Shown: piece after piece, positions 2,902 to 61,109 of the stretch
Layout: every line of letters begins with the position of its first letter
How positions within the stretch are numbered: position 1 is the first letter of the stretch
From: Spinacia oleracea
Lineage: Eukaryota; Streptophyta; Magnoliopsida; Caryophyllales; Amaranthaceae
Direction of reading: 5' to 3'
Length of the DNA stretch: 64,000 nucleotides
NCBI RefSeq assembly: GCF_020520425.1
Contig: NC_079487.1
Coordinates: 109,526,141-109,590,140, forward strand
The notes under the pieces: model-generated
Databases searched by the model: none
Seen by the model: only the letters and a program-made list of their open reading frames with translations
What the model was told of the DNA's origin: nothing
Translations under genes and position numbers: made by a program

Positions 2902-4599
2902 TCCTTCAATGTTCATAAGAGGTAACACCCATTCTTCCATGTACCACATATCTCATTTGCTTCTTCACACACAAGTCATATGTCTGGAGTCTGAACTATA
3001 TTTGCATATACTAGTCTGTGTTTTTGGACTTAACAACTACCAGGTTTAGGATGATTGGGCTTTGGGGGTGATATTATATTGTTTATTTAACCTTTGGTTA
3101 TTTTCTTTGATAATTTCCTTTTGCTGGTGATGCCCTTCGCTCGAGAACTGATTAGTTTTATGAAGAAATACACTGTCATGGGTGAGTGACATCAATCTAT
3201 GAAGGAAAATAGCACATCCCTGAAGTCTACTGAATTGTTTTGTTGCTGGATCATTCTCTTAGGTCTGTTTGTTTGGTCCCAAAAGATAACTAGATTAGAA
3301 AGAAGTTTGCTTAAAATTTATTGTGGGCAGATTTTGTTAGGGAATTTGGCACAGAAAAACTCCAATTGATTTTGATTAACTAGTTGAAATATGGCGATAT
3401 AGATTCTCTTTTCAGTTTGGTCGACTATTTACTGTGTATTTCAGACTCATTTTCACCTGACGATCATATTTTTCACTTCCAGATAGATAAACAAAAAATG
3501 GTTGCTAACTTGCTACCAGCCTATCAGTGGGATTAATCTGCCACCAGCGCCTTCTGTCGGGGTTTGATGGATAATTATTCTGTATGTATATATGTAAATA
3601 GCCATTGGTAATATGCAGCCTTTGTAACCGATGAATCGGGATTGGTAGTATTTCAATATTGTCTATGTATTAAATTAGTACATCAATCTATAAAAATGGA
3701 AGGGTGGTAGAATTTGCTCTACAACAAAGTTTTATTCAATTATTTTTTGCAAAATCTATTCATTCAATCATTAAGATACCTAACTTTTTTTTGGGCGATA
3801 AATAAGTTATTGATTATTAGTAGGCGAGATTCTAAAATTTTAACACACCTTAATTTTGTATCAAATGACTTAGTTCTCAACAAATGTTTTAAATTTCGCA
3901 CCATAAATCTTTAAATTTACCAAAATGTATCGAATGCCTCTTCCTATCGACCATGTTTTCCTCTCATATTTATTTACATGCATCAAGAATTCAACTATTT
4001 TCTTAATTCATACATTAAATTATCAATGGATGAATTAAGAAAATAGTAATTCACTTAATAAAAACAAGTTCTTTTTCCAAACACAATGGTGGTTTTTTAT
4101 GAACGATTTCCCTACAAATAGCTAAATCGAAAACTAATTTTCAATTTACATTGGTTTAAAAACTAATTCCCATAGTACTGTTCACTAGGATCGGGTAAAA
4201 GCTTCGTTTAATTTTGAAAAAAAATTCAACATAAAACCGCTAATATACACTTGGATGCATGATGGACTCTGCTCGATATCCAGTAATTTACCATCAAACT
4301 AAAAAGTAAAATTGGGCTGTTACGAACGTTAAAAAAAAAAGAAGAAAAACAGAAGAAGAATTGGGCTGTTACAACTTACCAGTTTACCAGTCACCCACCA
4401 ACCTCGGTGGGTTAGTGGGTTTGTTGACACAACACATCAAGTGCCACTCTACTATTTCAAAAAAAGTTTGGATTTTTGTTAAAGAAAGAAATCGCACCTT
4501 TTTCTTCATTTTCACAACAATTCGCCAGTACTCACTCCTCATCCTCACTGCACAATATACGGAGTACTTCGGAAGAGAGAAAGTAGGGTAACAATTACA
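2902..4599. other. SMC2 3' UTR and intergenic region to the H-protein gene
   Basis: AT-rich non-coding DNA. The first several hundred bases are likely SMC2 3' UTR. Just upstream of the next gene, a 15-base direct repeat (aattgggctgttacr) occurs at about 4311 and 4360, separated by a purine-rich tract. The 5' leader of the H-protein gene probably begins near 4500. No further gene is supported. Confidence 0.5.
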
Positions 4600-7000
4600 A
4601 TGGCTTTACGGTTGTTCGCTTCTAGGGCCGCCTCACGACTTGGGATCTCTCTTCTTCCCAGATCATATGCTACTGGTATATTATTTTTTCATTTTCCCCC
4701 ATATATTAACTAAAAATCCCCGATCATATTTATTTCTTAATATGATTATTCATTGACATGCTTTCTAATTTTGTATTATTTTCTCGATTTGTAACTTTTT
4801 AATATAAGATCGTATCTGGGTTTTTGTTCAAATGCGATGTACTTCATCGTTTGTGCGTTTTTTGGTTAAGGGCTTTTGGTTATGAATCTTATTTTTTGTG
4901 TTTTGATTTTTTTTTTTTTTTGTAGTTGTGATTTTGTTTTGGATTATTTTTCTTATGAGATTAGTTGGGTAGATTATGATATCATTGGATTTGATTAAGA
5001 TGTAATGTTGAATGTAAAAAGAAAATTGATTTTGCACTATATGAAAGGTAACATGTAAAGTTGTAAACCTTGATTCCTTAGGTTAGATGTGCTAATATCC
5101 TATGTGATTTTGTCCATAAGATTGTTCTTTTGCTCAAAAGATGGTAGAACAATGAATGAGGTATTGTCGGTTTCATTGATATGGACTTTGGACTTTGGAC
5201 TTTGGAGTGGAAAGGGACATTTGTTCCTTCACTTGTGCTCTTGTTGGGTAGTGTAAGCCAAATGATCTTACATTAGTCGTTATCATGTCATTTTCAATCC
5301 AAGTTTGGTGAGATTTTTGTCAAGTATATAACGTATAACTTTTTTTGTTTTGTTTTTGAATTCACTAGGTTTTAGTAAGATTTCTAGAGTTTTATTGAAG
5401 AAGAATAAGATCACTTTGAGACCCTTTTTTAATACCTTTTTGTAGTTTGATGCTCAACTATATCAGTTTGGAAATTGGCCGTTTTTACAATGTAGTTATT
5501 GAAGCTGAAATGAGACCTTTTTTTAATGCCTTTTTCTTTTTTGGGAAAGAAAGTGTGCTTTTTTGTTAGAAACTGCTTGGTTTGTCACTGAATGTTCTTG
5601 AGGTCAGCCCCTTTAGGTTTTGTCAGGACAAATAGTTGTTACATCTTGTTGCCTTGCATGGTGGAGTAGTGTAGTATGTCACATTTTTTCCCTTCACTTG
5701 TTAAATGTGTTTGACAGTTTGTTAAAGAGGTACTCTATAGGCATTGAGGACTAGTGTGCATTTTCAAGAGCCTATTTGAGTCTTTGAACTTTATAAATTT
5801 AACACCACCTTGTGGGCATCATTTAAAGTAATACTTGCAGGACCAAGAAGAGCTTTAAATTCTTATGGGGTGATTTTGGTATGGGTTTTTCTATTTGTTT
5901 AGAGTTAGCGTGTTGGATCCTTTCTTTTACTGGCCTCACCCAACTTTGGCCTATTTTAATTTATATTAAAAACTTAAAAAGCATCGTATGAAGGGGAAAT
6001 TGTAGTGAGAGTCTGAGGAGAATTCGGTAAAAATAGTGGTGTTTTGGGATCTTTCCTATAAGTTGTAATGCTGAAATCTGAAAACGTGGTTAAGAGAACG
6101 TTGACCAATATGATGTTTTTTGTCTGATAAGAAAGCTTTTAATCTTCATCGGAAACAGATGAGCTTGATTTCATTTCATGCTTTTGATCTATAGAACTAC
6201 GTGTTTCTCCTGTTGTATAGCTTACTGTATAATCAACCAATACAGAGTAAACCTTTCTCCGTATTATGAAGTATCTGCTAGATTATATAGGGTTCTTTGC
6301 TGCATGATCCTGCCGTTATGAAGTTCAACACTCAGTATACAAATTCTGTCTTTTCCTCGTGTAATTTGTTCCTATCTTGCTTCCACCTTCACCATCTTTT
6401 CTGCAGATATCTGAAAAAATAGCTGAGTTTTTAAATGATAATAATATGGTCTTTACAGTTGTATACTTATTATATATAGCTTCCTCAAACCTTCTGCGCA
6501 ATTGTTTTACATTGCTGAGGTAAAGGATGATGATTCTGTTCTATCATGTATTAATAAAACAAATTAACATTAATTTTGAATTCTTAAGTAACAATTTGAA
6601 TTCTTGTGCAGTTGTTGGGGACTTGAAGTACACTGACTCACACGAGTGGGTGAAAGTGGAGGGTAATTCAGCTACAATAGGCATAACTGATCATGCTCAA
6701 GAGCATTTAGGTGATGTAGTTTATGTTGAGTTGCCAGAAGAGGGAGCTGCTGTTTCTCAGGGAACAGCTTTTGGTGCAGTTGAGAGTGTGAAGGCATCGA
6801 GTGATGTTAATTCCCCTATTTCTGGTACCGTGACTGAGGTCAACAATGAAGTCGGTGACTCCCCAGGATTGGTAAATTCTAGCCCGTATGAGAAGGGATG
6901 GATCATTAAGGTGGATTTGAGCAGTTCAGATGAGCTTAACTCCTTAATGGATGCTGATAAATACAGCAAATTCTGCGAGGAAGAAGATGGCAAGCATTAA
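4600..7000 (+). CDS. GDCSH: Glycine cleavage system H protein, mitochondrial
   Basis: Two exons, 4600-4675 and 6612-7000, joined by a 1.9-kb GT-AG phase-1 intron, encode 154 residues. Residues 1 to about 25 ([15 protein letters not shown]...) are Arg/Ser/Ala-rich without acidic residues, as in a mitochondrial presequence. The rest is a complete lipoyl-domain H protein with [26 protein letters not shown], and [16 protein letters not shown], in which Lys86 is the expected lipoylation site. The C-terminus [16 protein letters not shown] is typical of the family. H protein shuttles the aminomethyl group between the P, T and L proteins of glycine decarboxylase in photorespiration and one-carbon metabolism. 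The short presequence resembles the shorter Arabidopsis isoform (At2g35120 type, from memory). The start is the first ATG after a pyrimidine-rich leader. The gene looks intact. Confidence 0.95.
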
Positions 7001-43945: not shown

Positions 43946-44272
43946 TTAGTCTCGGCAATACTTAGAGAAAAAAACGACGATGGCTTGGTAGTTGGGAAAT
44001 ATGTTAATTGATCTCTCCTCACTAGAGTACTGCTTCCGTACCTTTTTAATTGCGTCACATATATCATTGATTTGGTTTGTTCTTTTATTGAACTTGCTCA
44101 GAAACTTTTTGAGGTTAGCTGCCCGTGATGCTTCTCCATTACCCCATATTTGCACAAACCTATTTGCGGCCGAAGAACTCAACTTCGACTCCGGGAAGAA
44201 GACTGCAGCATCAACAACTCCACTCATCATCACCAGCCCTATGATAACAAAGCATCCCACCATATTCTTCAT
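43946..44272 (-). CDS. Small secreted protein of unknown function
   Basis: A single-exon frame of 108 residues. Residues 1 to about 22 (MKNMVGCFVIIGLVMMSGVV) form a clear signal peptide with cleavage likely near DAA. The mature part is basic, with two Cys (72 and 106) that could form one disulfide, and ends VVFFSKYCRD. A strong TATA box lies about 90 bases upstream of the ATG, and the leader is short and AT-rich, supporting a real transcribed gene. I do not recognise the family. It has none of the multi-Cys patterns of defensins, lipid-transfer proteins or RALF peptides. It stands alone between repeats, so it could be lineage-specific. Confidence 0.7.
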   Translation of the reverse strand: MKNMVGCFVIIGLVMMSGVVDAAVFFPESKLSSSAANRFVQIWGNGEASRAANLKKFLSKFNKRTNQINDICDAIKKVRKQYSSEERSINIFPNYQAIVVFFSKYCRD

Positions 44273-44360
44273 TTTATCTTCTTCAATTCTTTGACTTTGT
44301 TTATTAATTAATTAATTAATTGTTTAGAGGTTAATGTGTATTTCATTAGCTAGATAAGTG

Positions 44361-47486: not shown

Positions 47487-47587
47487 CTTTTTTTTTTTGG
47501 CAGAAACTACGAACAGAAAAAACATTAACCCTGTCTCCTAGCATGACAAGCTAAATCATGCGCATTCCTTACCCTATTTCTATGACA
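47487..47587 (-). mobile_element. 3' end of the LINE, beyond the Helitron
   Basis: Read on the minus strand from 47587, twenty codons (CHRNRVRNAHDLACHARRQG) end in TAA at 47527-47525. They are followed by a short 3' UTR and a poly(A) of 11 (47498-47488). The wording is the expected C-terminus of a plant L1 RNase H domain, and it is in phase with the LINE frame that is cut at 57701. It is therefore the missing tail of the same LINE. Confidence 0.92.
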
Positions 47588-47596
47588 CTAGTTGTT

Positions 47597-47622
47597 GGAC
47601 CGCGCGCTAGCGCGCGCGGTCC
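47597..47622 (-). terminator. Helitron 3' hairpin
   Basis: A 26-base structure with ten perfect GC-rich base pairs and a six-base loop, five bases before the terminal CTAG. In Helitrons such a hairpin ends rolling-circle replication. It is the only strongly GC-rich palindrome in the surrounding AT-rich DNA. Confidence 0.9.
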
Positions 47623-48613
47623 CCCAAGATATTAAAATCGATTTGCAAAATTAGTTGTATAATTAGGTTGCCTAATTGAGTGATTAAGAATTAATTTAAC
47701 GAGCGTAGAATATAACTTAGTTACTAATCATAGTCACAATTGAATATAAATTGTGCTTGAAATATTGTGATTTTAGGTCAATGTTCAGTTTTTAAAAAAT
47801 AGATTTAGTTTCATTCAAAATATGGTTACAATATCTAACACAATTAGTGATTAATTTATTAGCCAATATCTATAACTTTATACTAAAACATACACCAAGA
47901 ATGAATCATTCTTGATGTAAATTTTCCCTTCAAAAATATTTTTCCTCTAAAAAATATCTACATTTTTTTTTTCCTATCCTTTTACATAAACTTCGTACGT
48001 ATTATGTCCTTGATAATGTACCAAAAACATACTTTATAGTCTATACTTATATAGAGTCCTACTCTCCTAGAACAATTAGTTTTCTTTGCTCCGGAAATAG
48101 GAAACCTAGTACTCCGTATATATATGTTTTTTATTAACGTTAACATCATTCAAGCAGGACAAGGAGTTCATTAGCATGATAATGCAAAGAATTGAATGAT
48201 ATATTTTCGCCAAAAATTAAACTTTAACAAAAAATTTAAGAAAAAACTCTCTTTCATTTTTAATTTGCAAAGACAAGGTCTGTCTTTCGAGCAGTTTCAG
48301 ATTACATGTCCTATTTGTTTCTTTGCCATCATCTTCTTGATTTAGATACATCAACTCAAAATGAGTAATATTCTTAAGCAAAAAACTGAATTTAGGTGAT
48401 ATGGTAGAATAGATGCCAATTAGGATGTAAAATGGAACATTGAAGGAGCCTTTCTCTGCCAGGTTCCCTAAGACCTTTCTCTGCACGCGTTCTCCCTCTC
48501 AACTGATTGATTTCACTCTGTATGCTTCCTACAATTCACAAAACATAACCAATAAATTATCAGTCGATATGCTTTTGACAAATGCAACATAATCCTGCAA
48601 GCTGCGCACTTAC

Positions 48614-49272
48614 CAAAAACAAAAGCATCCTTATTGCCAAATCAATTCTAAAACCAGGATTCTTCTCAATCATCCCATATATTCATAGCGGAAATCCTGT
48701 CTGACAAAGAATCAACACCGAGAACAGAATGAACTGGCCATGACATTGGCACTATCAATTTCCTGTATGCACAAGTAGCAGAACCCATTAGGAAGACAAG
48801 TTCCTAAACTTTTTCCGTCTTGAACTACTAATTACATTAACAAGATTGCTTATATTTCTCAAAAAAGAAAAGACGGCTTATATTTGCATTTTTGAAAAGG
48901 GGGGATATTAGACATACCCTTGGAAAGATTTGTGTTTGCAACGATTCATGAAGTCCATGGTATATTTCCCAAACCAAGCATCAAGTTCCCTTGCAAGTGT
49001 AGGAATCTTGGAAGCTGGTAAGATGTCCCAAACTTTGATAACTTGAGTGTTCTTGAATTCTTCCATTAGGATATCAATGGACCAAGCAAGGTAAAATTTC
49101 CATCAACCGGGTATTGCTCCAACAATTCAGCTACTACGCCGTAAGCAGAAACCTGTTGCTTCCTTAGAGTTGGTACGCCACCCATCAGCTATTTTCTTCA
49201 GAACTTCCTGTACAACTTTCTTCTAGATGTTTATCCTTGCTGTCGATATCTCGAATCATCAGTGAAAATAAC
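48614..49272 (-). pseudogene. UvrD-like helicase family gene, captured C-terminal exons
   Basis: Two exons with good splice borders, 49272-48918 and 48762-48614. The first reads IADGWR early and later VIKVWDILPASKIPTLAREL, then FGKYTMDFMNRCKHKSFQG. The second continues KLIVPMSWPVHSVLGVDSL and IEKNPGFRIDLAIRMLLFL. This wording is that of the plant UvrD-like / TPR-ankyrin-repeat helicase-like family (from memory). Frameshifts occur in both exons (around 49130-49200 and 48680), so it is not functional. The helicase motor domains are absent. It is cargo of the Helitron, in sense with it. Confidence 0.72.
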
Positions 49273-49938
49273 CTGCACAAAGAACAAAATTTACACCAAA
49301 TTTTCCTGTGGAAAGGTAGATCACAGATGAATTTACATACCTTCCATCTTGCATTCTCGAGTTTCAGGGAATCAAAGTTGCATATAATAGTATTAGTATT
49401 AGCATAAGGAAACTTCCGATCATACCATATTAATTTCAGCTAATGTCAAAATAAAGTGTAAACTTAATCACAACCCAGAAATTGAAAACAGTTTCTGAAA
49501 AAGATTCTCTGAAATATATAAAGAACGCATCTTGTGGGATAAACACAAAGATTATCCATTAAAATCTTACAATCTCGTTGTGCAAACTACATGGTCATAC
49601 ACTCTTCAATAAATTACAAACAATATCAAACTTGACTATATGTCTTCCCCTTGGATTTCTTTTGGCGCATAGGCTAATCAAGCAGTAGGAAACTGAAAAA
49701 AAAAATTGTAAGATGTATATTGCGAGTTCAAGATAAAAAAACTGCCATACCCTCCTAGCCAATAAATGATTTCAAAGTCTTTCACATTTGTTCATTATGC
49801 AGCGTGATTCTCTCTTAAAAACTATATCAATTTCAAATAATACTTGCTAGTAACATTCAGTCTCATCTCAAGACAAACCTACTACAAGCAGTGGCAATGA
49901 AACCACTATCCTACAAACAAAATAAGAAAATGCATTAT

Positions 49939-50041
49939 AGATATACTAAGGCCTATACTGCTTGGATCATTTTCAAGCTACTCAAAATTAGATATACTAA
50001 GGCCTATATTGCTTGGATCATTTTCAAGCTACTCAAAATTA
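49939..50041. repeat. Two 51-bp tandem copies
   Basis: The phrase agatatactaaggcctata followed by tgcttggatcattttcaagc occurs twice with period 51 and one difference (ctatactg / ctatattg). Within the Helitron, between two gene fragments. Confidence 0.9.
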
Positions 50042-50473
50042 AAGGTATTCATATATTTAAATCCCATATGTGAATATTTTTGATCAATGGTGAAGAAGAT
50101 TTGTTGGTTGAAGGAAGCTGAGTAGCTCAATCGTAGTACAAAAGCATAATCACTCGGTCAATAAATGTTACAGAGGAGGAAAAAGTAAAGACTTCAGATC
50201 TTTTCATTAAAATGATACATGTGAAAGTAAACTGATGTTTTGTAATGCCGAGAAGCAATGGTGGAAAAACGGAAATGTATTTCTCAATAACTATGATTTT
50301 TGAATAGTGTAAATAACATGACATTTTTTAGATCTCTCTGTAATAATTATTCGAAATATAGACAAAAGAAAGAGATCTTTAAGAAAACAGATTTTGACAG
50401 GTTCAACGTTCAACTAACATCTATACTCTAATAATTATTGTGAAGGACGTGGAGAGAGAAGAAAGAAAATTAC

Positions 50474-50778
50474 ATTAGCCTTGGCCTCCACAGAAGTACC
50501 ATGAGAAAGAAGCAGCTTAACAACTTCATTGCAGTCATTCTTCTCACGGCCATGTGTAATGGAGTCTCCCCAGACTGCAAAAAAGCACTGTAATGTTAGG
50601 GGTCAAAAAAAAAAGTCAACTGTTTGCTGCAACCTTATGCACAATTCACCAAAGTGCAAGCTCATACCATATTCCTTGCTTCCGGCTCAACCTTCTCCAA
50701 TCCCATCCATTTCAGCAAAACTTCAACAATCTCAACATCATTGTAGCCAGCAGCAACACGAAGAGGAGTTTGCACCAT
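50474..50778 (-). pseudogene. Ankyrin/AAA-ATPase (CbxX/CfxQ-type) gene, captured exons
   Basis: Two exons with GT-AG borders. 50778-50668 reads VQTPLRVAAGYNDVEIVEV and ends EPEARNM. 50574-50474 starts SGETPLHMA, then shifts frame near 50548 and continues NDCNEVVKLLLSHGTSVEAK. These are ankyrin repeats 2 and 3 of the plant ankyrin-AAA ATPase family like Arabidopsis At3g24530 (recalled, not searched). The frameshift and the absence of the AAA domain make it a fragment. In sense with the Helitron. Confidence 0.75.
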
Positions 50779-51453
50779 CTGTAATTATAAGAAGTAACAA
50801 GTCACTCAACGGTTGCTGAAATCATAACTTTAAACTTTATGAAACAAATCGCATTCACTTTAGAATCACAGTAAACAAGGTCAATTCCCTAATATAGTCA
50901 AAGCCCATTAGGATGTCATCATTGATTAACAGTTTACTAAATTTAAAAGCAACTATTAGCCTCTATTGATGTAGCGTGATTCTGCGGCACATTTCTTTTG
51001 GAACTGGACAACCTGAAAGTGAAAGCATCATATACTTTGCTCTTGGCTTTGCCTAAGCTTAGTAACTTTACAGTACATCCGAAAAATGCACCTCAAAATT
51101 TCCTCACAAAGATTACATGGACAAGATTAAATATCTTCAACAAAAGACCCTAATTTCATAACCAATTTATCAAATTTTGTTCTCCATTGGGTCAATTTTC
51201 GAATGGCGGCGCATCAAATGATCCATTTTCTTTTCATATCCAACACAAAGTAACGCATATTGCAACTTCAGCTAAAAAATTATTTTAAAAACAACATAAA
51301 TTGAAATGCTGATCCAATTTATTGAACATAAACCATAAACCCATCCCATAAATCACATCAAGAATCCTAATTTAGCACCGACATATTTTACATCATCAAA
51401 GAAAACAACAAGAACAAATATAACAGACATTTTTAACAAAAATCAAAGCAAGC
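50779..51453. other. Helitron interior, no gene seen
   Basis: AT-rich DNA between the ankyrin fragment and the 322-bp array. No exon was recognised. Confidence 0.4.
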
Positions 51454-53027
51454 GAAAAATGGCATTTTCGCTCCCAACTTTGAACTAAATAACCTAAGCC
51501 ACCATATGAAACCTTTTACATGTTTTATAAGCTTAGTTTTAACATTTTAAGACACATTCAAATGTACTTATTCACATTTAATGCTTATTGGGTCGTTATA
51601 GATCCTATTTTGCCTAAAATGGCATTTTCTTGCCCAACTTTGAGCTAAGGAACCAAACTTATCATTTAAAACTGTTTACATGTTTTCTGTGGCACATTCA
51701 AGGTTTCTAAGACTCATTCTAATGTACTTATGCACATTTAAGGCTCATTTGGTCGATATAGGTCATATTTAAGCTAAACTAAGGCATTTTCGCTCCCATT
51801 TTTTAACTAAATGACCTAAGGGCCGATTTTAAACTTATTACATATTTTATAAGCCTAGTTTTAACTTTCTAAGACATATTCAAATGTATTTATTCACATT
51901 TAATGCTTATTGGGTCGTTATAGGTTCTATTTTGCCTAAAATGGCATTTTCTCGCCCAACTTTGAGCTAAGGAACCAAACTTATCATTTTAAACCATTTA
52001 CATGTTTTATGTGTCACATTCAAGGTTTCTAAGACTCATTCTAATGTATTTATACATATTTTAGGCTCATTTGGTCGATATAGGTCATATTTAAACTAAA
52101 CTAAGGCATTTTCGCTCCCAGTTTTTAACTAAATGACCTAGGGGATGATTTTAAACTTATTACATGTTTTATAAGCCTAGTGTTAACTTTCTAAGATATA
52201 TTCAAATGTATTTATTCACATTAAAGGTTTATTTGATCGTTATAGGTTCTATTTTGCCTAAAATGGCATTTTCTCGCCCAACTTTGAGCTAAGGAACCAA
52301 ACTTATCATTTTAAACCGTTTACATGTTTTATGTGTCACATTCAAGGTTTCTAAGACTCATTCTAATGTATTTATGCACATTTTAGGCTCATTTGGTCGA
52401 TATAGGTCATATTTAAACTAAACTAAGGCATTTTCGCTCCCAGTTTTTAACTAAATGACCTAGGGGATGATTTTAAACTTATTACATGTTTTATAAGCCT
52501 AGTGTTAACTTTCTAAGATATATTCAAATGTATTTATTCACATTTAAGGTTTATTTGATCGTTATAGGTTCTATTTTGCCTAAAATGGCATTTTCTCGCC
52601 CAACTTTGAGCTAAGGAACCAAACTTATCATTTTAAACCGTTTACATGTTTTATGTGTCACATTCAAGGTTTCTAAGACTCATTCTAATGTATTTATGCA
52701 CATTTTAGGCTCATTTGGTCGATATAGGTCATATTTAAACTAAACTAAGGCATTTTCGCTCCCATTTTTTAACTAAATGACCTAGGGGATGATTTTAAAC
52801 TTATTACATGTTTTATAAGCCTAGTGTTAACTTTCTAAGACATATTCAAATGTATTTATTCACATTTAAGGTTTATTTGATCGTTATAGGTCATATTTTG
52901 CATAAAATGGCATTTTCTCGCCCAACTTTGAGCTAAGGAACCTAACTTATCATTTTAAACCGTTTACATGTTTTATGTGGCACATTCAAGGTTTCTAAGA
53001 CTCATTCTAATATATTTATGCAAATTG
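51454..53027. repeat. Satellite-like array of 322-bp dimeric units
   Basis: About 4.9 units with a strict period of 322 bp. The A half-unit (aaaatggcattttctcgccc) starts at about 51616, 51938, 52260, 52582 and 52903. The B half-unit (aaggcattttcgctccca) starts at 51454, 51781, 52103, 52425 and 52747. A and B are diverged copies of a ~160-bp monomer, sharing ggcattttc, acatgttttat and tcaaatgtattta-like phrases, so the array has a two-monomer higher-order structure. The middle units are almost identical, while the outer ones are more diverged. It begins just past the last exon of the EDR2-like fragment. Confidence 0.93.
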
Positions 53028-53087
53028 CTTCCTGAATTGTTAAGAGTAATAAACCCCAAAGAATGATTTGAGATAATGGTGTCAAAC

Positions 53088-54648
53088 CTTGAAAAAATCA
53101 TGCTGAGGGCGTGACAGAACTGGTTTGTCCTTGTCAGCATTAAGAAGTCTCTTTTCAGTAGAACTCAACTGAAGATCCTCCGGATTTACCACCCCCGACA
53201 AGATTTTAAGTCATTCTCTGTAAGGAACCACTGATTTAAGCTTCTCAGATTCATTGTCTATCAGTCTGTGTATTAGGAAACGCTTTTCTTTAGGATAAAC
53301 TGCAGTAAGTGTGAGTGTTTTAAGGAAAAAGTAGGTCAAAAAACAACTGAAACAAAGTACCTTGATGCTGTCTATGAAGTCTGATGGAATTTCTTGGTCG
53401 ATTTTGTCAGATAGCTTGAAATACAGCACCAGACTTATGCCTTCACCATCGCTGTCACCCAGGAACATTGAAGGATTTATTATTGATTTTGAGGTAACTA
53501 ATTGCATAGAAGACTTGCTGTATAAGGTAAAATATAAAAGAAGATGGGATTTTTTTGATGTAATGAGTAAATGAAGATGCTTATAAACAGATTGAACTTA
53601 CTTGAAGAAAGTCTCCCCCCGGACCCTAAAAACGGAGGGTGAAATTGCAGACCAAGAGCCTGGTAATGCCTTCTCATCACCATTTGCACAGGGAATGAGC
53701 AATCCTGCTTGGGGACGTAACATGTGTGCACCTGACCACAGGTTTGACAGGTTGAGTATTTTTCCATCTACCACCCGTATGTAATAATCATGCAACAATT
53801 AGTAAAAAGGAAATCATGCCAAATATGAAAGTGTACTTTAAACAAACAAGAATGTTATGGATGATCCTGCTGACCTCCGAAAACACTGATAAAATCATCA
53901 TCAGATTCAGATTCTAGTATGCTCACTGAATCAAACCATGCTTCTTCCTGGCAGACTCCTGCATACAGAAAAATATAATCCTTGATAAGACAATCAAGAA
54001 TTCCTGACTCCAATCATGAAAGTGAAAAAGTACCATTTTCATCGATATGGTTCCAATGCACCTGAGTTAAATGGAAGGATTTATTAGAAACCTCAGATCT
54101 CCTGCAAGTAGTGGTGCCTCCCTTGTCAAAGTCAATTTGAACAAACTCGCTCACCGATATGGGGTAAAAACACCAGGACCTACTCAAAAAAGAAAAGGGA
54201 GTCAAGACAAACATTAACATCCGTAAACATAATTGTAACCAGTTTAGGAGACGTCGAGACTGCAAACTGTAGTAAAAAACAAAAATTATTCCCTTTATCC
54301 CAAAAGTTTATAATCTTAAGGGATGCTTTCTTTCTTCAACTATTATTAACAATTCAGTTCAATAAGGGGCAATTCAGGAAATTTTAGGCTCTTTTGACTC
54401 TCGTTTTAGGTTGGGAAAAGGTTTGGGGTAATCATAAAGAGAAAGACAGCTGAAATTTTGGGACACCCAGAAGGCCAGAATGCAGAAAGCTATGTAGATT
54501 GTTTACCTTTCTGCAATTGCAAGTTCACATGTAGGAGAGATGGCTTTTGCTTGACTGCTGAGAACAGCATGTGGAAGAACACGGATTATCTTTAGCACAA
54601 TGCAGTCTTTACTGTTGTCATGCCACACAGAAGCTGAATAACAGCTTG
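53088..54648 (-). pseudogene. EDR2-like DUF1336 gene, captured and broken
   Basis: Exons on the minus strand join in phase: 54648-54507, 54179-54034, 53958-53875 ([19 protein letters not shown]), 53767-53602 (LRPQAGLLIPC, PGSWSAISPSVFRVRGETFF), about 53470-53361 (MFLGDSDGEGISLVLYFK) and 53265-53088 ([29 protein letters not shown]). The order and wording match the C-terminal domain of plant EDR2-like proteins (DUF1336/EDR2_C). Defects: the stretch normally between FRVRGETFFK and MFLGDSDGEG, about 60 residues, is missing; there is an in-frame TGA at 53213-53211 where the family has Arg; and the final exons are absent, with the 322-bp array in their place. Confidence 0.82.
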
Positions 54649-57224
54649 CTGAAGAAAAAGTAGGAGCTTGATATACAACAGCATTACAGATTTACAAGTG
54701 GCAATTCCCAAGCCTTGACATATCCTACAAGGCCGGATATTGAGGATGAAGCAAATGATAAATTCCCAGCAGAGCCTGCAGAGGCGACGTCAAATAATTT
54801 GCAATAAAGCAAAACATACTTTGGCAAATGATAAGCATGAGTGCATGACACACACTGCCTCAATTAATTAATTACCAGAAACTCCAAAATAAATAAAGTT
54901 AACTCCTTTAACTTCATTCACATGCAGACATTAATTAATCCAGTAGAAAATTTGTAGCGGCAAAAGGAATTGATTAACCCACCGCCAAAATGAACTTCAG
55001 CACTAAATAACAAATTTCAGTAGAACAAAACAGAAACTGGAGAAATAGAACAACAACAGAATTACCACTACAAAACAGCAACAATAGACACCAACATCCA
55101 CAACACAACACATTCAATCAAGACCTAATAATACCCTATTAAAACAAAATCAGGGAACATATAACCAGGCTTCTCTGTTTGTCCTTAGCATTCATCCCCT
55201 CATTAAAGGCTCGCTCATTCAGTCATTTTAACCTCTTGATAACTATCAGATTGATCCAACAAGAAATTTCATCCCCTCGACTCTACAAAAGGGTAAATTT
55301 CTCCCCGCTTAGTGATCAAAATTAGACATCACAAGACTCACAAGAACAAGACACTACAAACACGATTAAAACACAAAGTAATATAATAGCCCAGTTAAGG
55401 ACCATGCAGCGGCTCCTATTCAATCAGAGACCAAAGCAGCGGCTCCTTTTCAATCAGAAGAATTGGTTCTGTATTTTGTAAAGGCTGAGTCATACGGAGT
55501 AGTTTATTTGCTTTATACGGAGTATCATCTTTAGTATTGCAAGATACAAGGATGTGACTGCTAGTACGAAATGTTATACAAGTTCAAAGCAGAGTCTGCT
55601 CAATTAAGATTTAATAGTTACATATGCCATTACTAAGTGACTATCAAGTTACTATGCTTCCCATATAAGAAAGGTAACAAATTACCAAAAGTGCGAAGGT
55701 TCTGTATTTTAACTCCAGAATATTCAAACAGCCTAAGAAACTACTCAAAATAAGGAACCACTTTGAATATTATGGAGTTAGCAACTACTCCAGATAAAAG
55801 TGAAAAGGTTCTGCATTTTAACTAATAATAATGGTTCAAACTAAAGAACAAACATGATAGGTTAAAGATGATCTTTCAGCGACTTCTTCCATTTTATAAC
55901 AGAAAGATATTATCCATGCCATCTTATAAGCTACAATCCCCATGAAGTTGTATATAGAGTAATTTAAATAACTGAATTAAGAGGCCAAAAATTAAAAGCA
56001 TAAATCTGCACCCGCTTTTCTATGATGCTAATAGCAAGCTTGTAAACAACATTAGTTAATGTTCCCATAAGCTGATATCTATCACCTTCAGACCCAAGAT
56101 TAATACAAATCATTAACCTTAAAACTGATAATTAATTGACAATTCATATAAATTATAAATGTCACAAATTCAAATTACAATCTCAACCAAACCTTGACAA
56201 AGAATAATGCAAAATTTTGGTCAAAAACCTGAGAATAAGAAACTGGAATGGCAACTGGACAAGATTTTGGTGTCTTTACCCTACTGCACTGATATTTAGA
56301 TAAGCAACTATTTACTTGTGTCTTTACCCTAAATATTGCAGTAAGCACTAACACGTCGAATGTTGAATAAGCATTACCTAACTTCCTATACACCATGAAT
56401 TGGATTGCCTTCTTACTGGAATGATATGCAACCCCGCCTAACACGCATATCTTGCATACCACACCTAAAATTCCTCTAAAATAACCTAACCTCCTTTATT
56501 GATCCCATATTACAAAGCATATCACTATACAAAGATCAGATTTTCATAGCATATCATTATAAAGTGCAGATCAGAACCCCAGACATATCTTGTGGTTTTT
56601 ACGATTTGTCAAATAAAACCCAAACCATCAAGACCTCAAAAACAAACCCCATATCAGAAAGATGTAAACATAAACAAAGAGACGATAGCAAAACCTATAA
56701 TACCTGAACAAAAGCATGAGCATGGGTAACATCCAATGGCCTTTCCCTTCAAGACAGTATACATTCAAAGAAACAAAATAACAAAAACAAAAAACTGAAT
56801 TAATCATAATTAAAACGATAATCAAAAAAAATTCTTAGATTACCAATTCTAGAATTCGAAATATTGTCACAACAAACTTTACGATCGAAAAAAAAAAATT
56901 GAGTAGTACCTAAAGCAATACATGGAAAAGCCCTTGGTTCTGGAATCGCAAGATTGTTCATCTCCTACGCATCCACATAAATTAACAGCTACAATCAAAA
57001 ATAGAAAAAAGGCAACTGAAAATCAAAAATGAAGAAAATTGAACAAAAGTTGAATCAATTGAAATCAAAATGATCCGATTTAATCATAAAATTAACATAT
57101 TCATGCAACAAAAACGCTAAATCAATTTGCCAATTCAATTAAAAACCCTAATTCAGCAATTACAACCGAAAATAGAACCCTAATGTAACAAAACCAGAGA
57201 AGATAGAATTATACCAGGGAGGAA
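54649..57224. other. Helitron interior with one possible small exon
   Basis: Mostly AT-rich intron-like DNA. 56964-56910 (minus) is a plausible 55-base exon, in phase with the candidate first exon at 57291-57225, encoding DEQSCDSRTKGFSMYCF. No other coding piece was recognised. Confidence 0.35.
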
Positions 57225-57291
57225 GAAGACGAAGTGAGAGTGTTGATTGCAAGCTGGAGGAGGAGAGAAAACTCCGGCAATCGCAATCCAT
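57225..57291 (-). pseudogene. Candidate first exon near the Helitron 5' end
   Basis: An ATG at 57291 opens MDCDCRSFLSSSSLQSTLSL and ends in a good GT donor. It may be the first exon of the captured EDR2-like gene or of another gene. The phase to the next recognised exon (54648) does not fit directly, so an exon is missing or the pieces are unrelated. Confidence 0.4.
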
Positions 57292-57700
57292 AGCACATTC
57301 TTTTCTTCAATTTCTGATCTTCACATCCGTAGAAGACAGAATAATCTGGAAAGTACGTGGAGATAAAAAAAAATGGAAGAAAATGAAGAGGAGAGATCGA
57401 AGAAAATTAAGAGGAGAGAGCACCGGCATATTCACAGAGGAAAGAGAAAGGGTGAAGAAAGAGGGAGCAACTCATCAGGAGTTCTGGGAAACCCGCACAA
57501 GAACAAAGAGGAAGGGAAGTAGTGGAGGTGAAGACTGAAGAGGGAGAGATGGCACAAGATCAACGGTGGATGAAGAAGCGACGTGGCATAAGCTGGACAG
57601 AAGGGCAATGAGTAATAAAGACATATGAGTGGGGGCAAAAATGGCAGAACACTATTGCTGCAATAGTAACTCCAAGTTTACATGTTTTAAAGTGTTAGGA

Positions 57701-59665
57701 TTTTACAATAATACAATTTTGAATTTTCACAGCTAAACACCTAATTTCACTACAGATTGTTGCAACCTTTATCTTACAGCACGAGTAGTCCTTTAAGGCC
57801 TTGATACTATTAGAACAATCTGTATAGATAGTAACGGATTGTATATGGGACTCCACCACCTTTTTCATGCCTGCTAAAATAGCTTTCATCTCTGCTTGTC
57901 CAGCATTTCTAGCTTTCACCCTATAAGCATCTGATGTAACCCTTCTTCCATCTACTTCCAGAGTCCATCCTATAGCTGCTACACTTTGCTTGCTCTTTTT
58001 CCTTCTTTTCCAAGCTCCATCCACAAATGCAATCACGTTTGTCTCCCCATAATTTCCCTTAAGAACCAATAAATTTGTTGAACTCTTCATCCTCCTATGC
58101 AGTATCTTATCATACATTCTTTGTGCCTCAACTGTTTCTCTGATAAATATCTGACTTGAAGCTATCACTTGTTCTGGATCAGGGTGATTGTTTCTGAACA
58201 CAATGTTGTTTCTTTGCAACCAAATTGCCCATAACACAGCAACAAAGGCTAACACTCTCTGACTATCTTGACCATCTTCCTTCCAAAAAAACATTAAGAA
58301 ATTCTTTATCCACTCAGATATATCAATGTAGTGCGCACTCATTACATTAATTCCTAGTTGACTTGCTTTCCAAATTCTCCCCACAAATTGACAGTCTCTA
58401 AAACTATGAGAACAGGATTCCTCACATCTCAAACAGAACACACAACTACTGTCAACCTGTATGCTTCTTTTATTTAGATTATCTTTTGTGTCCAGTGCTT
58501 TGTTTATGATTCTCCATACAAACACTCTCCAATTTGGTTGTATCTTACCTTTCCACAACTTTTTCCAGAATACATTAGTATCCTTATCCTCACTAAACTC
58601 CTTCCTATTATAAAGAAGATGTTTGTATACTGCTTGTTAGAACTTAGAAAGGGGGGGATTTGTTAGAAAGTAAGTGTGAGTATTGTGTCCCACATCGGAA
58701 GATTATATTAAGCAAAGAGCTTCTAGTTTATAACCTAAGTGGGCTACTCCTCCTATTGACAATTGGTTTTAGGATGGAACCTCGCCTGGGCTATGTTAGT
58801 GGGCTTCTGTTTCCTCTTCGATTCCCCCTTCTGTTACAACACTGCTCTCACAGTAGGCTTCCCGTTTCCTTCATCTTTCCAGTGGATTTGGTCATCTATA
58901 TCTGTACTTGGTAGCTCAAGACTAAGAATCTCTCGCGCTGACTCTGCAGTAAATGTGCTCCATATTTTAGAGGTATTCCACTCTTTTTTATTTACATAGA
59001 ACAAGTCCTTAACAAGCAAAGTTTGACCAATATCATCTTCCCTTCTGCTCTTAAAACCGCACTCACCTGATGGTATTCAGTTTTCTTCTCTTATTCGTGT
59101 ATTGCCATGAAAAATAGCTTTGCAAAATCCTTTTTTCGCAGACTGAATACTCCCACACATACCCTTAAATCCCCAAGAAGATCTAGTTGGTATAGATTTC
59201 AAAAGGGTAGCTTCTACAAGTGTAGATTTGTAAGCTCCTTTCATTACCTTGGATACTAATAGATTAGGGTTATTATGAACCCTCATTGCTTGTTTAACTA
59301 GGTATGCCTTATTAAAGAGTTCCACATTCCTCAATCCCACTCCACCCAATTCCTTTTGCAGTTCTAATTTGGTTCTTCTAACCCAACACATTCCTCTCTT
59401 ACCTGAAGTTCCTTTCCACCAGAAATGCATAAGCATATAGTCAATTTGGTGTGTTATTTTTTTAGGAATCAGAAATGATGCCATAACATTTGAACACAAT
59501 GAAGCTAGGATGGCATTAACAAATAATAATCTCCCTGCCTGAGACAAACTTAAAAACTTCCAACTTCCAATCTTCTTCTGGACCTTATCTATCAAAGGAT
59601 GAAATGCTTGAGACGATCTACCATCAATTTCCACATTGCATCCCAAATATCTTCCAAGATAATTC
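57701..59665 (-). mobile_element. L1-type LINE, ORF2 C-terminal half, multiply interrupted
   Basis: On the minus strand: 59665-59077 encodes the post-RT region (GRYLGCNVEIDGRSSQ, SLSQAGRLLFVNAILASL, MHFWWKGTSGKRGMCWV, ELGGVGLRNVELFNKAYL). A single in-frame TGA lies at 59079-59077. The same frame resumes to 58847. Then a solo LTR intervenes, and 58634-57701 gives the zinc-binding region (VFCLRCEESCSHSFRDC) and RNase H domain (VIAFVDGAWKRRKKSKQS, AEMKAILAGMKKVVES, YTDCSNSIKAL). It is cut after Lys at 57701 by the Helitron and finishes at 47587-47525. The 5' side is cut by the copia-type LTR at 59666. The reverse transcriptase core lies outside the window or is lost. Confidence 0.93.
58635..58841. 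mobile_element. 207-bp solo LTR (TRIM-like) inside the LINE
   Basis: It begins TGTTAGAACTTAG and ends TGTTACAACA, and is flanked by a perfect 5-bp duplication ctgct (58630-58634, 58842-58846). Removing element plus one duplication rejoins the LINE frame. The cccacatcggaag phrase is common in short plant LTRs. No primer site or second LTR is present, so a solo LTR of a very small retrotransposon is the simplest reading. Confidence 0.9.
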
Positions 59666-61109
59666 TGAAGGAAATAATGTCCTTGGTCCAAGTATGCATT
59701 CTATGTTAAGTCTAATAAATGCGGTTCAGTATTAATTAACAAGTTAATAATTCAGTGAGATCAAGTGAGCTGAATGCCTAGCTAGAGGCCGCTTCAGTTC
59801 AAGTGGAATTAATGATATTAATCCACAGCTTACTCTTGACTGAACCCGTAGGGTCACAAAAATAGTACGTAAACGGATCAAGTATTTAATGGCATTAAAT
59901 ACTCCATCTATGGATATTCGGAATCGACGGATCTTGGTTTCAGTTGGAGCTGAGATCGTCACAGGCAAGAAATGAATACTCCGGAAACGATGATATTGCG
60001 GGAAACGGAAATATGGATCGTATCGAAAATATAAATATTATCCAAGTCGTAGATGTTGCCGGAAACGGAAACATGGTACGTATCGGAAAATATTATCGGA
60101 AATGGAAATATTGCCGAAATCGGAAATATTGCCGGAAACGGAAATATTGTCAGAATCGGAAATATTGCCGGAAACGGAAATATTGTCAGAATCGGAAATA
60201 TTGCCGGAATCGGAAATATTGCCGGAATCGGAAAATAATTCCGGAAACGGAAATATTAAATATTTGTTCGAAACGGAAATTAATTCCGGAATCGGAAATA
60301 TTAAATATTGTTCGTATCGGAAATGAATTCCGGAATCGGGAAATTAATCGGAAGCGTATCGTACGAATTAGCATCGGACGAGGCCTGCCAGACGAAGGCC
60401 CAGCACGAAGCCGGGCCATCGCCCAGCAAGCCAGCGCGCCACAACGCACCAGCCAAGGCTGCGCCAGGCCCACCGCAAGGCAGGCCCAGCGCGCGCCAAC
60501 GCTGCGGCAGCGTGTGGGCCTCGCAACAATGGGCTGCGAGCTCGCGGGCTGCGCGCGCGCGCATGGCGCCCCTCGTGGGCTGCTGTGCGTGCGTGTGTGT
60601 TGGTGTGCTATACGAATCCTAAAGCTATCAGGTTTCGACTAATGATTAAATTCCTAAAACTAAAAGGATGAATTAATTAAATAAGAATTCTATTAGGATT
60701 CTAGTTTAATTAATTCGTATCCTAATAGGATTACGATTCCCTTTCCATACCTCTATAAATAAAGGCCTAGGGTCATTATTTTATATAGAGTATTCAAGTA
60801 TTCAAAGTGATTTTTGAGAGCAAAAATTCAGTCATACAATTGCCTATACTAGCCGAAAATTCCAAGTACCTTAAGGGCGATCCTAGCTAGTTGGTCAAGC
60901 TTAAGGCGAATCCGGACGTGCTGTGGACTATCTACGGAGGGACGACACTTGGAGTCCTAAAGACTTGTTCTTGTTCGGTTCGGGCGCAGCTAGGGAAGGC
61001 ACGCAACAAAGTGTATGCATCTAAACTATGCTAAATGATTATGTGTAAATAATATGCTTTCCTGGCTTTATGGTTTTTCCGCATGATTTATGAATTGTCA
61101 TATGTATCA
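59666..61109 (+). repeat. 5' LTR of the copia-type element
   Basis: TG...CA ends. It contains a minisatellite of ggaaatattgccggaatc-type units at about 60090-60330 and a GC-rich block at 60380-60600. A TATA-like ctctataaataaagg at 60751-60765 is a good candidate for its promoter. Confidence 0.7.
60085..60330 (+). repeat. 18-bp minisatellite in the LTR
   Basis: Roughly ten units of ggaaatattgccggaaac / ggaaatattgtcagaatc alternate, decaying at both ends. A diverged version occurs at the same place in the LTR at 36120. Confidence 0.88.

Follow-up and report, generated by a model that had tools for sequence, protein, structure and literature searches.

A young non-autonomous Helitron carrying host gene fragments inside a LINE of the spinach genome

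Introduction

In a window of 64,000 nucleotides of spinach DNA (Spinacia oleracea, NCBI RefSeq assembly GCF_020520425.1, contig NC_079487.1, positions 109,526,141 to 109,590,140 of the forward strand), the RNase H reading frame of a long interspersed nuclear element (LINE) is interrupted and is taken up again some 10 kb further on, which raises the question of what the intervening DNA is and what brought it there. An earlier sequence-only reading of the window had proposed a complete Helitron. According to our analysis the insert belongs, almost beyond doubt, to a non-autonomous Helitron family, in which it is one of the young members, and both its lack of autonomy and its load of host gene fragments go beyond that proposal. 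The family is new, while the kind of mobile DNA is well known, and non-autonomous Helitrons carrying gene fragments have been described in maize and rice (PMC2575219).

Results

The insert runs on the minus strand from 57700 to 47588, is exactly 10,113 bp long and lies inside the RNase H frame of the LINE (Table 1). With a slash marking the junctions, its 5' end on this strand reads GTAAAA/TCCTAACACTTTAAAACATG, the codons ATT GTA AAA standing before the insert, and its 3' end GGACCGCGCGCGCTAGCGCGCGGTCCAACAACTAG/TGTCAT, or in a longer read GGGGGACCGCGCGCGCTAGCGCGCGGTCCAACAACTAG/TGT CAT AGA; the LINE frame, ...NCIIVK / CHRNRVRNAHDLACHARRQG-stop, stays in phase over the insert. It starts with TC, ends with a GC-rich hairpin followed by CTAG, and is flanked by A and T. 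These boundaries, and the frame that resumes in phase and proceeds to a stop and a poly(A) tract, had been put forward in the sequence-only reading and are correct to the base, as we found on reading the junctions and the A11 run 26 nt past the LINE stop; target duplications, which that reading had considered as an argument against itself, are absent from both window junctions. Once the LINE flanks are joined, the Pfam RVT_3 match rises from 34.3 to 43.1 bits and its coverage of the profile, at first positions 2-104 of 123, becomes 2-122.

When 238 bp of LINE sequence, made up of the two flanks joined together, were searched against the entire assembly (894,210,420 bases, 242 contigs), four rows were returned, namely the two halves of the window LINE and two other LINE copies, at C4:85472686-85472904 (74% identity) and C3:44066590-44066684 (76% identity), both ungapped at the junction. 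The empty site consists of these two uninterrupted related copies of the same genome, not of an orthologous allele, and the comparison indicates that the LINE has diverged from its relatives and that the Helitron insertion is secondary. The LINE's own target duplication was sought too, with weak matches only. Definition of the ends to the base by an empty site had been called rare; when it lies in a known repeat, such a site demonstrates the ends well, though it is not specially rare, and empty sites inside known repeats served as the same kind of query in a study of oyster elements (PMC7492417).

It could be argued that the 10 kb are ordinary genomic sequence and that the LINE pieces are two unconnected fragments, with frames that match through chance or a rearrangement, given that this LINE copy alone is interrupted and that the joined RNase H domain gains just 8.8 bits. 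Such a view is already contradicted by the two LINE relatives, which run ungapped through the site and do not contain the 10 kb, and by the occurrence of these 10 kb, ends included, in at least five other places with unrelated flanks, and we give it practically no credit.

Table 1. Features of the window, with positions in the 64,000-nucleotide stretch; element positions count from the 5' end of the Helitron
Feature	Position	Strand	Remarks
Complete non-autonomous Helitron, 5'-TC...CTAG-3'	47588..57700	minus	between A (57701) and T (47587) on the minus strand; at least five other copies
5' terminus TCCTAACACTTTAAAACATG	57681..57700	minus	recurs genome-wide; preceded by A at 17/17 recognisable ends
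5' module, element 1 to ~1334	56367..57700	minus	common to six other loci (L036-L041) with the same 5' end
Putative MED16-like gene fragment	54171..54667	minus	83% over 515 columns to L048
EDR2-like (PF07059) fragment	53065..54150	minus	GT-AG introns, in-frame stop; 42.6 bits, cut-off 24.7
Tandem array	51461..53026	minus	4.9 copies of a 322-bp unit, a dimer of ~161-bp half-units
Ankyrin-AAA gene fragment	50364..51447	minus	frame-shifted; 87% over 1,108 columns, introns included, to donor-like L050
SEN1/UPF1-like helicase gene, 3' part	48152..49377	minus	three stretches, 78-83%, to the end of donor-like L051
3' module, 157 bp	47588..47744	minus	common to RepHel elements A/B (93%, 87%) and other Helitron ends
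3' hairpin GGACCGCGCGC-GCTA-GCGCGCGGTCC	47597..47622	minus	9 nt from the 3' end
LINE, upstream piece	57701..58634	minus	zf-RVT and RNase H domains
LINE, downstream piece	47488..47587	minus	final 20 RNase H codons, stop, 26 nt, A11

The termini recur elsewhere in the genome, as had been anticipated, and many other elements with such ends were found. Among the 40 scored matches (of 656 candidates) to a 3'-end query, 21 begin at query positions 86-88, at most three bases from the junction at 88/89, and the corresponding count for the 5'-end query is 26 of the 40 scored matches (of 183 candidates) beginning at 98-100, again no more than three bases from the junction at 100/101. We examined 3' ends in the window and in 20 fetched loci, where L018 and L019 count as duplicates of a single locus and the degenerate 3' ends of L027 and L028 were placed via a loose motif. 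T follows all 21 of these ends, the two degenerate ones included, and CTRR is present in 19 of them (CTAG in 17), the exceptions being L023 and L028. The 5' sample comprised 18 copies, one of which, L010, is without its first 33 bp; all 17 recognisable ends are preceded by A and 16 start with TC, L041 starting with TT. Flanks differ among the loci seen, save for the duplicated pair L018/L019. No terminal inverted repeat of at least 20 nt joins the ends (shorter ones were not listed), and inspection of the end sequences by eye showed none. The hairpin of the window element has an 11-bp stem with a predicted -18.6 kcal/mol (z -6.5), and none of 200 shuffles is as good.

A query with the last 600 bp of the element gave 41 rows, 40 of 843 candidates having been scored. 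The long copies, at least six with that of the window, make up rows 1-6; row 7 is a separated end of the sixth copy, and in the remaining rows the match is to the terminal 157 bp or to a shorter piece. Both ends are recognisable in five long copies (window, L009, L011, L017 and L022). L022, L017, L010 and L011, the last with an internal deletion, align to the window element at near full length; L009 aligns in pieces, with nested insertions and with its 5' part outside the fetched stretch. Substitutions relative to the window element, counted for the four near-full-length copies and not for L009, number 12 in 10,097 sites for L022, 57 in 9,754 for L017, 89 in 10,061 for L010 (whose 5' flank was untrimmed before alignment) and 203 in 8,780 for L011. 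A generic plant substitution rate is about 7e-9 per site per year, at which the window element and L022 would have split on the order of 0.1 million years ago. In L017 and L022 most of the 3' hairpin has been lost, with CTAG/T still kept.

The interior of the element is a mosaic in which four host gene pieces are recognised, all in the sense orientation of the element; on single exons Pfam gave sub-threshold matches only, and the exons had to be joined. The first piece resembles L048, which we take to be a MED16-like gene, Pfam, NCBIfam and PDB giving no support for the name. The close matches of the EDR2-like piece belong to copies of the family, to loci of the L042 type and to further loci at C6:100.51M, C4:87.88M and C1:58.3M; true genes may be represented by two short matches (75-82%). 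Read across its frame shift, the ankyrin piece scores 53.7 bits with Ank, and its counterpart L050 is an ankyrin gene that also has an AAA-like part, whose AAA match, 20.5 bits, lies just below the cut-off of 21.2. The helicase fragment alone gave no match in the library scans; its donor-like locus L051, presumably SEN1/UPF1-like, did match AAA_11 (116.3 bits) and AAA_12 (100.5 bits). Judging from these alignments, L048, L050 and L051 are candidate donor-like loci, and may be either the actual donors or paralogues of them.

Parts of this mosaic are shared with other elements. In all six of the loci L036-L041 the match to the window element breaks at about position 1334, and L036, L038, L039 and L040 have an extra ~1.4-1.5 kb after position 715. 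Four further loci have element positions 2540-2935 in common and 5' ends of this type 4-15 kb off. Element positions 3265-3791 and 4226-6174, which take in the array, a portion of the EDR2-like piece and the last part of the MED16-like one, recur at 95-97% in L042 and L043. These belong to a separate element (L042 with L044, L043 with L045), whose 3' end is a hairpin and ACGACTAG/T (also written GCGCACGGGCCAACGACTAG/T) and is common with that of the window element over 49 bp only.

The 322-bp unit of the array has at least 254 matches (40 scored of 2,852 candidate regions), which lie on all six large contigs and, among the matches listed, form short runs. A link of this unit to the reported 324-325-bp spinach satellite is possible. 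We rejected a derivation of the array from the 5' end of the element, with which it shares a motif of 12-14 bp: an equally high score is reached by 30 of 500 shuffles and by 29 of 166 other pieces.

No frame for a Rep/helicase (RepHel) protein was seen inside the element, where the longest internal frame has 128 aa and the scanned frames gave no Rep/helicase match; since no Rep/helicase gene of its own was found, the window element is non-autonomous. An autonomous element with the same ends had been named as a thing to look for, and a putative partner is present in L021 and L012, two copies of an 11.5-kb element (A/B hereafter) that are 97% alike and have the same type of ends. L021 holds an open frame of 1,459 aa with Helitron_like_N at 187.7 bits and PIF1 at 213.1 bits, including what we take to be the HUH and two-tyrosine motifs. 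Its 3' end agrees with that of the window element over 157 bp at 87%, and that of L012 at 93%; the 5' end of A/B, TCTCTAACTCTTTAAAAGC..., scores 48 against that of the window element, the best of 2,000 shuffles reaching 38.

Pack-MULEs carry gene fragments with introns, as the spinach element does, and one might ask whether a cut-and-paste transposon of this kind, or another mechanism, had carried the gene pieces here. The absence of an inverted repeat joining the ends within the limit given above, the window site without target duplication, the neighbouring A and T wherever an examined end was recognisable, and the ends in common with a related element that bears RepHel all speak against it, and we regard this explanation as extremely improbable.

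Discussion

Several observations weigh against the Helitron assignment. The hairpin is not kept in all members, a perfect stem of at least 8 bp being present in 14 of the 21 3' ends examined, and in the close copies L017 and L022 the stem has about 6 bp. The remaining points concern the partner: the 5' end of A/B is only distantly similar to that of the window element; the Walker A motif of L021 is off the usual form at one residue and the RepHel frame of L012 is broken by stops, and with such frames A/B is not a surely active partner. The genome moreover holds at least 154 matches to Helitron_like_N, 150 candidates of 353 having been scored, and the listed rows are all over the cut-off.

The last observation, together with the moderate similarity of the A/B 5' ends, bears on a variant of the same reading, in which a RepHel family other than A/B would have mobilised the Helitron and the common 3' end would be due to an exchange of ends; the Helitron-ended element of L042/L043, which has cargo and yet just the 49 bp of 3' end in common, points the same way. 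A/B are, however, the sole RepHel-bearing loci recognised among the 20 fetched, their common 3' end extends over the full 157 bp, and their 5' similarity lies above every shuffle. We consider this variant a serious possibility, though one on which we would not rely.

Keeping to A/B as the candidate, we propose that the RepHel protein of this related element most likely acted in trans and made a nick at the 5' TC of a parent copy. One strand would then have been peeled off, with a stop at the hairpin and CTAG and presumably by way of a rolling-circle intermediate, and the copy would have been inserted by strand transfer between A and T of the LINE without a target duplication. Earlier, the parent would have gained the short tandem array and pieces of genomic DNA from at least four host genes, which sit between a 5' module of ~1.3 kb and the 157-bp 3' module. 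Capture may have occurred by read-through or bypass of an end. Given that relatives have the 5' module in common and then diverge, we infer that the mosaic most probably arose through bypass of the terminator.

The route from nick to insertion is suggested by analogy with Helraiser, the Helibat element with TC/CTAG ends, a palindrome near the 3' end and an A/T target, for which bypass of the hairpin has been described as a route of capture (PMC4778049). The spinach element shares with it the TC/CTAG ends, the 3' palindrome and the A/T target; Helraiser, however, is a bat element that was reconstructed and tested in cells (PMC4778049), while ours is known from its sequence alone and its partner would follow from the similarity of ends. 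A resemblance of another sort concerns the non-autonomous Helentrons (HINE) of oyster, which carry satellite-like arrays; in both cases rolling-circle elements scatter short tandem arrays through a genome. The oyster elements have TT targets and two modules (PMC7492417), whereas the spinach element carries gene fragments and is of the canonical Helitron type of plants.

From the available part of its text, a survey of spinach by HelitronScanner reports 1,297 Helitrons amounting to 9.05 Mb, elements of the same superfamily, and describes no family, ends, cargo or partner among them (PMC6337768). We found no published description of the present family in the literature searched, and some of its copies may be among those 1,297 predicted elements. 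Another survey of repeats gives, in the portion available, a Helitron cluster in beet only and not in Spinacia, its table showing traces of up to 0.010 in the columns after the first three (PMC7840529). The two surveys thus differ with respect to spinach, and the present data support the presence of Helitrons in its genome.

The Helitron family described here is very young and precisely bounded, has a candidate RepHel partner and belongs to the genome of a crop; its young copies with known empty sites can be used as presence/absence markers. The gene-fragment Helitrons of maize and rice have TC...CTRR ends, a 3' hairpin, an A/T target and pieces of several host genes, and are without a RepHel gene, in all of which the spinach element is like them. 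It is unlike them in having other ends and other cargo, in that its recognised fragments are all sense-oriented, and in that it contains the 322-bp tandem array as well. Its interest lies mainly in its youth, its modular cargo and its array, and cargo common to different Helitrons bears on gene capture and on the spread of tandem arrays.

We may even suggest, as a speculation to which we attach rather little confidence, that this spinach Helitron family has been active recently and perhaps still is, and that its cargo is modular, the EDR2-like piece and the 322-bp array occurring in two Helitron-ended elements with different interiors. On this same block in two such elements would rest the further suggestion that Helitrons exchange their cargo and spread satellite-like arrays across all six of the large chromosomes, and that such arrays could seed larger satellites, for instance the 324-325-bp one of the sex chromosome.

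Other features of the window

The same LINE has a second insert, at 58635-58841 on the minus strand, of 207 bp with the ends TGTTG...TAACA and a flanking 5-bp duplication, AGCAG; it looks like a solo long terminal repeat (LTR) or a small LTR element. A scan of the window with Rfam gave 0 matches at the gathering threshold. An open frame of 121 aa at 43946-44311 (minus strand) has a start that by eye is similar to a signal peptide, and its Pfam and NCBIfam matches are all below threshold. Past the LINE, at 60056-60347, lie tandem repeats of 18, 36 and 45 bp of the GGAAACGGAAATATT type, and their pattern is also found in open frames of the loci L016 and L020.

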